This document shows positions 6,574-26,781 of a DNA stretch of 42,299 nt, in pieces. Below the pieces are notes generated by a model. The model was not told where the DNA came from and did not search any database. It saw only the letters and a list, made by a program, of their open reading frames with translations. The first letter of the stretch is position 1, and each line of letters starts with the position of its first letter. The stretch is from Actinomycetota bacterium (lineage in GTDB: Bacteria > Actinomycetota > Actinomycetes > S36-B12 > UBA5976), in NCBI GenBank assembly GCA_009923495.1, contig RFTJ01000010.1, forward strand, positions 1 to 42,299. Reading direction: 5' to 3'. The translations under genes were made by a program, and so were the position numbers.

Positions 6574-6680
6574 GTTGCTAGCCTTTGGCCCTGTTAAATG
6601 GCGAACCCCGCGCTTGGCACACACTTGGCGCTAATCAATTCGCAAAGCCCGCTGGCAACCTCACAAATCCGCCTATTTGT

Positions 6681-6717
6681 CTGACACTTTGTCAGAATTA
6701 AAAATTGAATTTTCAAT
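6681..6717. promoter_or_regulatory. Two adjacent palindromes upstream of the secreted NCS-like gene
   Basis: CTGACA-CTT-TGTCAG (6681-6695) is a perfect inverted repeat with a 3-base centre, and ATTGAA-TT-TTCAAT (6704-6717) is a second perfect one with a 2-base centre. They lie in the 156-base gap before the gene that starts at 6730. No T-run follows the first, so it is not a standard terminator. They could be operator sites for a dimeric repressor, or the first could be the end of plsC transcription. A -10-like TAGTTT (6717-6722) lies seven bases before GTG 6730. Confidence 0.35.
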
Positions 6718-6729
6718 AGTTTTCTATTT

Positions 6730-7233
6730 GTGAAGTTTGCAAAAATCCTGATTGCTCTTGGACTTTGTTTGGTGATGCCGTTAAGTAGTATTGCCGCCAC
6801 AACTAAGGGCAAATCGGCATCAGGTCGAGGTGCTTCCGGTCAGATTTTGACAGTAACTCCAGCCCGAGCCGTAGTTGACGGGCAAACCTTGACGGTAGTT
6901 GGAAAAAAGTACAACCGCGATTTTGGAATCTATGTCGCTTTTTGTGAAATGCCCAAACCGAACACTAAGCCTGAACATTGCTACGGCGGAATCAACATCA
7001 AGGGCTCATCAAAAGGATCTATTTGGATTACCTCACACAAGCCGTGGTTTGTGCCATCGAGTGCGGTGAAGAAATTCACCAAGCTGGGCTCATTTCAAGT
7101 GAAAGTAACCGTTGCCCGCATGATTGACGAGACAGATTGCAAAGTCACCAAATGTGCCGTCGTTACTCGAGCTGATCACACCGACAGTGAGAACCGAAGT
7201 GCAGATGTAATCGTGCCAATCACATTCAAATAA
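6730..7233 (+). CDS. Secreted neocarzinostatin-like single-domain protein
   Basis: A 167-residue protein from a GTG start. Residues 1-23 form a signal peptide (KFAKILIALGLCLVMPLSS core, AA end). The mature part after a Gly/Ser-rich stretch has one beta-rich domain: VTPARAVVDGQTLTVVG, then IYVAFC with a C-x11-C pair (Cys72, Cys84) and a C-x4-C pair (Cys137, Cys142), then RADHTDSENRSADVIVPITF. The layout matches the neocarzinostatin/macromomycin fold (VTP..GLSDG opening, C-x9-C and DC-x4-C disulfides), an immunoglobulin-like apoprotein known for carrying enediyne chromophores. No enediyne genes are near, so chromophore binding is not implied. The same domain occurs twice in the next gene, 88 bases downstream. 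Function unknown; an exported ligand-binding or surface protein is plausible. Confidence 0.72.
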   Translation: MKFAKILIALGLCLVMPLSSIAATTKGKSASGRGASGQILTVTPARAVVDGQTLTVVGKKYNRDFGIYVAFCEMPKPNTKPEHCYGGINIKGSSKGSIWITSHKPWFVPSSAVKKFTKLGSFQVKVTVARMIDETDCKVTKCAVVTRADHTDSENRSADVIVPITFK

Positions 7234-7321
7234 AACTTCGAGAGGTCTACAAATTCAGGCAAAACAGCAAGTTATCAATGCAAGACAAGTCATCTCGAAA
7301 CGCAAATACAGAAGGAACATC

Positions 7322-8410
7322 ATGTTAAAGAAACTCAAGGTTGCATTGGCCGCAGCGCTTCTGATTAGTGGCCTAACTGCTACGTCAGCGAAAGCCGACA
7401 GCCTTTCAATCAGCTTGTCCCAATCATTTGGAATTGCGGATAGCCAGATCATCTCGGTCAAAGTAAACAATTTGCCGACCGGTAAAGGTGTTTATGTCCG
7501 TGAGTGCTATCTCATCAATGGTGCTCCGTCCAGTGACCCGAATGACTGCACAAAGCAGCAAAATGTTGGCTCATCCCTCTGGATTGGACCTGGCCGTGGC
7601 GCATCAGATCCGTCGCAAAGTCAGCCGTTCAAAGTTTTACGCACTATCAATGGGAAAGATTGTGCACCAGCCAACTGCGCGATTATGACAATGCGTGACC
7701 ATGTCGATTTTAGCGATCGCAGTTTGGACACTCTCATCCCAATCAAGGTTAGCAATTTGACCATAACCGCAAGCAGGGCAACCAACTTCGTAGATGCCGG
7801 CGAGGTCTTTACGATAACCATCAATGGTCTGGCAACTAACCAAGGTGTTTATGTTCGCGAGTGTGCTATCAGCGATGTGTCAGCTCGACCAACCAACTGT
7901 GACAATGCCAATGCTGTCTGGGCATCGGTCTGGCCCGCTGCTTTGGGTATGGGTGGGGTCGATGCTAGCAAGCCGGTTCCATTTAAAGTTTGGGGCGAAT
8001 TCAAGGGCTCTAAGGGCAATGTTGATTGCCAGTTGGTGACCTGTGGAATTTATATCGAACGAGACTTCAATGGTCTTAGTGATCGCAGCCTAGACACTCT
8101 GCAATTGATTGCCTTCAGCTCGCCAGTTAAAAAATCGCAAACTGTTGCGAAGTGGTCCACGAAGCCGAGCACCTTTAGGTTAATAAAAGGTCGATCCACT
8201 GAACTTGCCAAGTTGCCGCTAGTGACTAACCGCGGTGAGGTGCTGACGTGGGCGGTAAACAACAGCAGACTGTGCTCTATCACCGCAACTGCAAAGAATG
8301 TGTATGTAAAAGGTCTAGCTGCTGGTGATTGCGTAGTGACGGCTACGGCCGCCGAGAATCTTCGCGGTGCTCGAACTACGTTTGCTTGGACTGTAAAAGT
8401 CTCAAAGTAG
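7322..8410 (+). CDS. Secreted protein with two tandem neocarzinostatin-like domains and a C-terminal Ig-like domain
   Basis: A 362-residue protein with AAGGA upstream of ATG 7322 and a signal peptide ending in SAKA (about residue 25). Domain 1 (about 27-142) has VYVREC with Cys62/Cys76 and Cys114/Cys119, then MRDHVDFSDRSLDTLIPI. Domain 2 (about 144-262) repeats this with VYVREC, Cys181/Cys193 and Cys236/Cys241, then ERDFNGLSDRSLDTLQLI. The near-identical VYVREC and SDRSLDTL blocks show an internal duplication. The C-terminal ~85 residues (LAKLPLVTNRGEVLTWAV ... GLAAGDCVVTATAAE) resemble a bacterial Ig-like module with two cysteines. There is no LPXTG or C-terminal membrane anchor. It follows a shorter paralogue and probably arose by tandem duplication. 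Ligand and role are unknown. Confidence 0.72.
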   Translation: MLKKLKVALAAALLISGLTATSAKADSLSISLSQSFGIADSQIISVKVNNLPTGKGVYVRECYLINGAPSSDPNDCTKQQNVGSSLWIGPGRGASDPSQSQPFKVLRTINGKDCAPANCAIMTMRDHVDFSDRSLDTLIPIKVSNLTITASRATNFVDAGEVFTITINGLATNQGVYVRECAISDVSARPTNCDNANAVWASVWPAALGMGGVDASKPVPFKVWGEFKGSKGNVDCQLVTCGIYIERDFNGLSDRSLDTLQLIAFSSPVKKSQTVAKWSTKPSTFRLIKGRSTELAKLPLVTNRGEVLTWAVNNSRLCSITATAKNVYVKGLAAGDCVVTATAAENLRGARTTFAWTVKVSK

Positions 8411-8435: not shown

Positions 8436-8990
8436 TTAATTGGCGAGCGCTGCGGTTACAAACTTCAAAGCAGCATTAAGTTCAACTTCAAAGTCGGCCC
8501 CGGCATCAATTCGATTGGCAGCAGAGTTCACGATAGCGGAAATGTAAGCGCATGCGGATTCGGCGTTATCTGGATACACCTTGGCCACGGGGTTCATCAA
8601 GGTCAACATGAATTGACCATGCAGGATTCTAAGCAGGTTTCGCTTGGCATCAGCGAGATTAATTTCGCTTAACTTTCGGATTTGGGCATGCTGTCCATCC
8701 GATAGGTGAGCCAGTGATTGTTCAACCCAAGCGTGGATCTGCAGCAGTGGATCAGAAATGTCTTGAATCTGTGCCTCAATCTGATTCACCAAATCGGCCA
8801 TGTCGTTAATCACTAGTTCGGCAAAGATATCTTCAACCGATGCAAAGTATTGATACACAGCACTGCGGGTCATAGAGCAGCGATTAGCGATTTGCTGCAT
8901 CGAAATGTTTGCCGTGCCAGTTTCTTGAAGCTGCGCCAAAGTTGCTTCGAGAATTGCATTCTCTTTCAGCGCGCGATTCGAGGTAGGCAT
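8436..8990 (-). CDS. TetR-family transcriptional regulator
   Basis: A 184-residue protein. The N-terminal helix-turn-helix has the TetR pattern NISMQQIANRCSMTRSAVYQYFASVEDIFAEL (read as two parts at residues 28-44 and 45-59). The rest is an all-helical ligand-binding and dimerisation domain with no recognisable specificity. It starts 12 bases after the end of pfp on the same strand. A -10-like TAATCT (8997-9002) placed 6 bases before the ATG suggests it may also have its own leaderless promoter. It converges with the NCS-like gene across a 25-base gap. The target could be the pfp operon or the palindromes at 6681-6717, but nothing in the sequence proves either. Confidence 0.85.
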   Translation of the reverse strand: MPTSNRALKENAILEATLAQLQETGTANISMQQIANRCSMTRSAVYQYFASVEDIFAELVINDMADLVNQIEAQIQDISDPLLQIHAWVEQSLAHLSDGQHAQIRKLSEINLADAKRNLLRILHGQFMLTLMNPVAKVYPDNAESACAYISAIVNSAANRIDAGADFEVELNAALKFVTAALAN

Positions 8991-25456: not shown

Positions 25457-26781
25457 TCAGGCGGTAGCTGAAACGAATTGTTCGTGGATGATTTGTAGTG
25501 CCTCTTCCAATAACTGATCTGAGATCACCAGTGGCGGCAAGAAGCGCAACACATTTCCATAAGTGCCAGCGGTAAGCACCACTAGGCCGTTTGCGTGACA
25601 GCCCTTAGCTACTTTTGCTGTTAGTTCTGCATCTGCTTGTTTGGTGCCAGGCTTTACTACCTCAACGGCAATCATCGCGCCCCGACCACGAACATCTCCG
25701 ATCACACCAGTTTGACTGGAAATAGCATGCAGCCGCGGCAACATGATGGCCTCGATTTGCCGAGCTCGATCGACCAGATTGAGCTTCTCCATAGTTTCAA
25801 TCGATCCAAGTGCGCCAGCGCAAGCAACGGGATTGCCGCCATAGGTGCCACCAAGGCCACCGGGATGAATGCGATCCATGATTTCAGCACGGCCAGTTAC
25901 TCCAGCAAGTGGCATTCCACCAGCAATTCCTTTGGCTGTAGTGATTAGGTCTGGGACAATGCCTTCGAACTCGCTGGCAAACCAGTTTCCGGTTCGGCAA
26001 AAACCTGTCTGAACTTCATCGGCAATAAACAAAATCCCTTGAGCCTTTGCGTAATCAACTAGGGCCGATATAAATCCAGGAGCCGGCACGACAAAGCCAC
26101 CTTCGCCTTGTATCGGCTCGAGCACAATTGCTGCGATGTTACTTCCACCAGCGAAGCAGCTTGCTCACCGGTTAGTTCATCGTGATAGGGATATGAGGTA
26201 GCGAAGCGATAAATCTCTGGCGCAAATGGGCCAAAAGTATGTTTGTACGGCATGTTCTTAGCGGTCATGCCAAGCGTTAGGTTTGTCCGACCATGATATC
26301 CGTGTTCAAATACTGCGATTGCTTGCCGACCAGTAGCACTTCGGGCAATCTTGACCGCGTTCTCCACCGCTTCGGCGCCTGTATTGAAAAGGGCAGAACG
26401 TTTTTCGTGTGAGCCCGGAGTAAGTCTATTTAGCGCCTCACACACCTCGACATATTCTTCGTACTCGGTGACCATGAAGCAGGTATGCGTGAAGTCTTTA
26501 ACTTGGGCGATAACGCGGTCAACGACAGCGGGAGCAGAGTTGCCCACACTGGTTACTGCGATACCAGAACCAAAGTCAATTAACTGATTGCCATCAACAT
26601 CGACAACTATTCCGCCACCAGCTTGGATAACAAATATGGGCAGGGTAGCGCCGACTCCAGCACTGACTGCTCTAGTTCGACGAAGGTGAAGTGCTTGTGA
26701 TTGCGGTCCTGGAATAGCAGTGGCTAAGACTCGCTTCTGAACGATTCCGTTGACGACGCTATCGGTATTTTGTGCAGTCAT
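25457..26781 (-). pseudogene. gabT: 4-aminobutyrate aminotransferase (gabT), split by a frame disruption
   Basis: Two consecutive frames together make one GabT. The first (26781 to about 26150) has DFGSGIAVTSVGN, ALFNTGAEAVENAVKIAR, FEHGYHGRTNLTLGMTAKN and ends in normal sequence at YHDELTGEQAAS. The second (about 26149 to 25457) resumes with GGSNIAAIVLEPIQGEGG and continues with ADEVQTGFCRTG and the PLP-lysine block TTAKGIAGGMPLAG to a normal C-terminus. Changing frame requires re-reading one base. Relatives usually have about ten residues between the EQAA and GGSN blocks, and here about three, so a deletion of roughly 25 bases is likely. No slippery heptamer is present. The enzyme converts GABA to succinic semialdehyde, the substrate of the divergent dehydrogenase. 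Strain lesion versus assembly error is open. Confidence 0.82.

Follow-up and report, generated by a model that had tools for sequence, protein, structure and literature searches.

Two tandem genes encoding secreted proteins with neocarzinostatin (NCS)-fold domains, hereafter A and B, probably provide the hemophore-like parts of a heme-acquisition module. They lie in a 42,299-nucleotide stretch of DNA (the window), which is one contig of a 1.45-Mb genome that is 97% complete (G000), and whose relatives are, by name, Candidatus Nanopelagicales and similar freshwater actinobacteria. We favor this reading because 1) homologs of A cluster with PF01497/FecCD importer genes, heme oxygenase, and HtaA, 2) NCS domains are fused to HtaA repeats (L210) and to PF01497 (L156), 3) the host lacks ferrochelatase and ALA dehydratase but has cytochrome oxidase subunit I (COX1), 4) the heme-linked family conserves an Asp-His motif that is absent from all 10 of the phosphate-linked NCS domains, and 5) an operator-like palindrome and a TetR-family regulator are conserved. 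The NCS fold would be a previously unrecognized extracellular component of heme-uptake loci in actinobacteria, and a search of the openly licensed literature found no paper that links this fold to heme uptake.

A (6730 to 7233, forward strand) starts with GTG and encodes 167 residues, with a signal peptide at about 6730-6798 (forward), while B (7322 to 8410, forward strand) starts with ATG and encodes 362 residues, with a signal peptide at about 7322-7399 (forward). An earlier note, made from the sequence alone, had described two tandem secreted proteins at 6730-8410: these coordinates are exact, both frames are open, and both proteins have signal peptides. It had also described two cysteine pairs, and both pairs (C-x9-14-C and C-x4-C) are present in all three NCS domains: residues 72/84 (C-x11-C) and 137/142 (DC-x4-C) in A, 62/76 (C-x13-C) and 114/119 in domain 1 of B (7400 to 7753, forward; boundary approximate), and 181/193 (C-x11-C) and 236/241 in domain 2 of B (7763 to 8077, forward). 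The remaining motifs of A are W76 and RADH; domain 1 of B has RDH, which is replaced by RDF in domain 2. The repeats that had been noticed in B each occur twice and are identical, VYVREC at residues 57 and 176, and SDRSLDTL at 131 and 253. The Ig-like C-terminal domain of B is Big_2-like (8144 to 8356, forward), matching PF02368 as an isolated domain with an E of 2e-4 and 21.6 bits, just under the cut-off of 22.8. No lipobox is found in A or B of the window. The third member of the cassette, convergent with A-B, encodes a TetR-family regulator (8436 to 8990, reverse strand; PF00440, E 7e-11). When A and B are compared with their homologs in G077, dN is lower than dS, but dS is saturated, and no sign of decay is all that follows. 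Scanning the cassette for sigma-70 promoters and terminators returned nothing above shuffled sequences. Elsewhere in the window, a class III aminotransferase-like gene (25457-26781, reverse strand) appears to be broken into a pair of ORFs that overlap in different frames (26059-26781 and 25457-26125), through a frameshift or an assembly error.

Profile matches point, weakly but beyond chance, to NCS family membership of both proteins. The Pfam profile that the earlier note had named, PF00960, matches B, in domain 2, with 26.0 bits (E 1e-5; gathering cut-off 25) but not A, whereas NCBIfam NF040680 matches both B (51.7 bits, E 7.6e-14) and A (26.5 bits, E 4.6e-6), in each case below its equivalog cut-off of 86. 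Structure prediction, also proposed in that note, confirmed the NCS fold of A at the level of a confident model: the AF2 model of mature A, built from 20 homologs, has a pLDDT of 91.9 and a pTM of 0.87, and the first 12 matches in a PDB structure search are macromomycin, NCS, C-1027, and kedarcidin entries. The AF2 model of B (pLDDT 85.3, pTM 0.64) is a chain of beta domains. Foldseek with this full multidomain model returns mostly generic Ig-like chains, and macromomycin is the sole well-superposed match among the matches listed (TMt 0.74, rmsd 3.5). The count of three NCS-like domains, one in A and two in B, thus stands.

The earlier note had stressed that enediyne genes are missing and had proposed another ligand, possibly a pigment, given a nearby carotenoid island. 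Enediyne genes are indeed not seen: in the host genome (97% complete), no enediyne PKS was found, and the single ketoacyl synthase has a 415-residue frame, the size of FabF. Since A and B also miss the NF040680 equivalog score, we rejected an enediyne carrier role. The missing PKS, together with a genomic context pointing to heme, supports a ligand other than an enediyne, and a pigment-like ligand may fit in an unexpected way, since heme is a tetrapyrrole. The carotenoid link did not hold up: although chromophore carriers have the same fold, and carotenoid genes lie ~6 kb away in the window, several unrelated genes intervene, and this closeness is shared only with the nearest relative, G077, while the A-B-TetR cassette has other neighbors in G102, G100, G110, G035, G015, and the remaining relatives. 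With no enediyne PKS found and the chromoprotein equivalog cut-off missed, it is highly improbable that A and B carry a carotenoid or other pigment from those genes. To speak of an expansion in a small genome is only partly justified: the cassette is widespread in the order, and lineages differ in whether B carries two NCS domains, one, or none. In G102 and G100 (L083:1758-3820 and L084:3743-5440), the neighbors of the cassette are a molybdopterin-oxidoreductase-like protein and a lipoprotein that contains Germane and Gmad2 domains.

The heme-acquisition reading draws first on gene context. We surveyed the best 80 loci of 277 relatives in a genome collection, 79 of which have a clear separate A, within a radius of 6 kb, using context profiles that were made from few seeds and whose examples were verified with Pfam. 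In relatives, A and B recur with the TetR gene convergent to them, and a three-gene importer comprising a PF01497 lipoprotein, a FecCD permease, and an ATPase is encoded divergently from A. Among these 79 loci, a PF01497 binding protein lies within 6 kb of A in 72, accompanied by a FecCD permease in 64, with TetR in 49, heme oxygenase in 14, and HtaA in 11; when only loci flanked on both sides by 4 kb or more of sequence are counted, binding protein and permease are both present in 40/46. Among the source organisms are Micromonospora, Actinoplanes, Actinomadura, and Motilibacter, besides many Nanopelagicales, one of which is the cultured strain LanE-43 (L201). In a separate set of 60 genomes, FecCD lies within a few kilobases of A in 13 of the 18 genomes that have A, an NCS domain adjoins heme oxygenase in four of the five genomes with heme oxygenase, and A adjoins HtaA in 3/4. 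Three genomes from outside the family (G002, G012, and G014) also combine an A locus with an HtaA-domain protein and heme oxygenase, and in G016 a PF00960 domain is found 464 bp from heme oxygenase.

PF01497/FecCD importers by themselves suit siderophores or cobalamin equally well, which speaks against heme specificity. The substrate might then be another FecCD-type ligand (a ferric siderophore, cobalamin, or other corrinoid), the heme genes being neighbors through general iron supply, and most Nanopelagicales loci among the best 80 of 277 relatives do have only the importer, without heme oxygenase. We nevertheless consider this quite unlikely, because heme oxygenase and HtaA occur in the same loci, HtaA-NCS fusions exist, these genomes have their cobalamin-type FecCD operon at a different locus, and an auxotroph that has no heme oxygenase would need heme itself.

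Fusions and replacements also tie NCS domains to heme-uptake proteins. In Phytoactinopolyspora alkaliphila (L210), a 1196-residue protein joins three HtaA stretches to an NCS domain and has a weak match to an LPXTG anchor. In a MAG labelled Chloroflexi (L156), a 509-residue protein fuses an NCS domain of the A type (182 bits, with RADH preserved) to PF01497, and its gene sits between heme oxygenase and FecCD, with an HtaA protein that has an N-terminal NCS-like domain nearby. In L165 and L172, the B position is occupied by an HtaA-like protein (22-23 bits, just under the cut-off), which suggests that B is exchangeable with an apparent heme-binding domain. In G035 and G015 (L087:7731-8672 and L088:6326-7273), the B slot holds a secreted protein that lacks both cysteines and NCS domains and ends in an OmpA-type domain; a relative of this protein (38-50% over part of its length) is encoded in G004, at the locus with HtaA and heme oxygenase (L138). 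That an OmpA-like protein can fill the B slot, and that NCS domains are joined to binding proteins of two uptake systems (PF01497/HtaA, and a phosphate-binding-like protein beside pstCAB), would also suit NCS domains that are surface adaptors, docking carriers, whether HtaA-like proteins or lipoproteins, to one another, to hemoproteins, or to the cell wall without binding heme themselves. This is unlikely, though less so than a different FecCD-type ligand, since A is usually alone, small, and secreted without an anchor, and its Asp-His is kept in the heme-linked family only. Separately, five loci from Streptomyces and kin (L207, L211, L217, L218, and L221) combine a PF01497-like protein with several A-type domains, including, in L211, long proteins of ~850-900 residues with two such domains; no FecCD gene was found in the fetched stretches of these loci.

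That Asp-His motif belongs to a candidate heme site. An alignment of 90 domains of the family shows no variation at Tyr45, Trp76, the two cysteine pairs, or Asp126-His127 (mature numbering), a result biased by the presence of RADH in one of the two search patterns; in a set selected by profile and BLAST, the His is kept in 19/20. The motif is also present in most B-position NCS domains, and it is found in 0/10 NCS domains of the phosphate-linked family. We infer that Asp-His, with the invariant Tyr, may form part of a heme site. CR-type hemophores bind hemin via a Tyr, mostly with a helper His (PMC12494546), a parallel that we regard as a lead. Against the heme module, domain 2 of B lacks the His of this motif. 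We put direct binding of heme by the NCS domain itself at about even chances.

The phosphate-linked domains belong to a second NCS family, which the earlier note had overlooked in this host, and its existence means that the fold alone does not imply heme. These proteins are secreted, have ~450-730 residues and an N-terminal NCS domain, are also found in L101-L107, L111, and L112, and are kept in the genus and in other families. The host member, a phosphate-binding-like protein (G000:C9; L003:2270-5234), has a PBP_like_2 (PstS-like) domain and a hydrophobic C-terminus; its gene is followed by one for a sortase, and pstC-pstA-pstB-pstS are encoded divergently from it. The protein may bind phosphate at the cell surface, anchored there by sortase.

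Nanopelagicales rank with the most abundant bacteria of fresh water, and they reportedly lack heme synthesis. Ferrochelatase was not found in the host genome or in 22/22 other sampled members of the genus, and ALA dehydratase was not found in the host or in 21/22 of them. Their absence from a genome that keeps COX1 fits the heme auxotrophy published for Nanopelagicales (PMC10202952, citing Kim et al. 2021). According to one study, an open issue about these bacteria would be clarified by evidence that they secrete hemophores or have heme receptors (PMC7527133). A homolog of A is also missing from many genus members that lack ferrochelatase, so a second heme route must exist, and these heme auxotrophs without A argue against the cassette being the sole route.

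Upstream of A, the palindrome TCTGACActtTGTCAGA (6680 to 6696; 50 bp before the start of A) recurs in many relatives, G077, G100, and G102 among them, at -49/-50 relative to A. A site with no more than two mismatches is present at 25 of the 79 A loci among the best 80 of 277 relatives, 23 of them with TetR, compared to 15 of 1,600 random windows. In the host genome, the site at 6680 is the only one with fewer than two mismatches, so no further operator reveals an importer at that threshold; allowing up to three mismatches gives 22 and 24 sites, compared to 14 and 14 with a control pattern, which is uninformative for locating it. Judging from its position and conservation, the palindrome is probably the operator of the TetR regulator. 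TetR-family heme sensors exist, such as HrtR of Lactococcus, and by analogy heme-responsive control of the cassette is plausible.

In a tree of A, the window, G077, G100, G102, and two Microbacteriaceae MAGs (L151 and L153, one of which is labelled Rhodoluna) form one group with support of 97/87. L151 and L153 carry the A-B-TetR cassette. Their grouping with the window's clade suggests that the cassette has perhaps been exchanged between two freshwater lineages, both of which are reported to contain heme auxotrophs (PMC12381374). Beside A, no importer was seen in the window, G077, G100, G102, L151, or L153, some of these loci being on short contigs; in the window itself, PF01497, FecCD, and ATPase genes are all missing next to A-B. 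Nor was a heme-type FecCD found elsewhere in G000, G077, G100, or G102, and the missing importer, heme oxygenase, and HtaA in these four genomes count against the heme module. A Pfam search detected no HtaA (PF04213) domain in A or B. The only FecCD operon of the host (G000:C17) was considered as the missing importer and set aside as the less likely choice: it is of the type that lies beside cobU in relatives and was taken as probable cobalamin uptake. The absence of heme oxygenase is tolerable, because an auxotroph for the cofactor need not degrade heme. The cassette has so been kept in this clade after its separation from the importer, and A and B there either pass heme to another importer or have a different job; continued heme scavenging by the clade is what we infer.

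According to the mechanism that we propose, the host, unable to make heme, would have to import it, and secreted A and B would capture extracellular heme and, in relatives, deliver it to the divergently encoded lipoprotein/FecCD ABC importer, while the TetR-family regulator would control A and B by acting on the upstream palindrome. The window's clade, without a dedicated FecCD importer, would have to give heme to something else. More tentatively, and at slightly less than even chances, NCS domains with C-x4-C...R-x-D-H may constitute a structurally new type of hemophore that has no relation to CR, NEAT, HasA, or HmuY and is widespread in Actinomycetota, which would explain heme capture by heme-auxotrophic freshwater Nanopelagicales (and Rhodoluna-like bacteria), with an A-B-TetR cassette that works and moves between lineages without an importer. 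The module offers a concrete candidate for heme capture in Nanopelagicales, present in the cultured LanE-43, and a likely function for many secreted proteins that have no annotation in the heme clusters of actinobacteria. If true, a fold known for enediyne carriage gains a widespread nutritional role.

How do A and B compare with known systems? The closest PDB sequence to both is ThiX of Corynebacterium glutamicum (7QHM chain M; E 1.1e-9 for A and 2.3e-8 for B), with a match that extends over the entire domain and includes a conserved DH motif. ThiX is a lipoprotein anchored in the respiratory supercomplex, and its soluble domain is unresolved in the structure (PMC8795186); from the profile match (E 1.1e-9), we predict that this domain (7QHM/7QHO chain M) is an NCS-fold domain of the A family with the DH motif. 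A and B might, like ThiX, be accessory subunits that dock on the cytochrome bcc-aa3 supercomplex, which we hold to be improbable, since both lack a lipobox in the window, their gene context is heme uptake rather than respiration, and the TetR-linked cassette occurs in only part of the genus. With the enediyne apoproteins (neocarzinostatin, macromomycin, C-1027, and kedarcidin), A shares the fold and the two cysteine pairs, but identity is 14-18%, the A/B genome has no enediyne PKS that we could find, and the Asp-His motif is a feature of the A family. CwpG of Actinoplanes missouriensis likewise has a secreted NCS-like domain outside enediyne clusters, but it is sortase-anchored to the cell wall (PMC13251363). 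For the heme-acquisition module that we favor, the counterpart is HtaA/ChtA with HmuTUV and HmuO of Corynebacterium, where the extracellular domain is CR (PF04213) instead of the NCS fold; the window's genome has neither HtaA nor heme oxygenase, but the type of locus is the same (a secreted protein, a PF01497 lipoprotein, FecCD, and heme oxygenase), and in relatives of the window, HtaA and NCS proteins are adjacent or fused.
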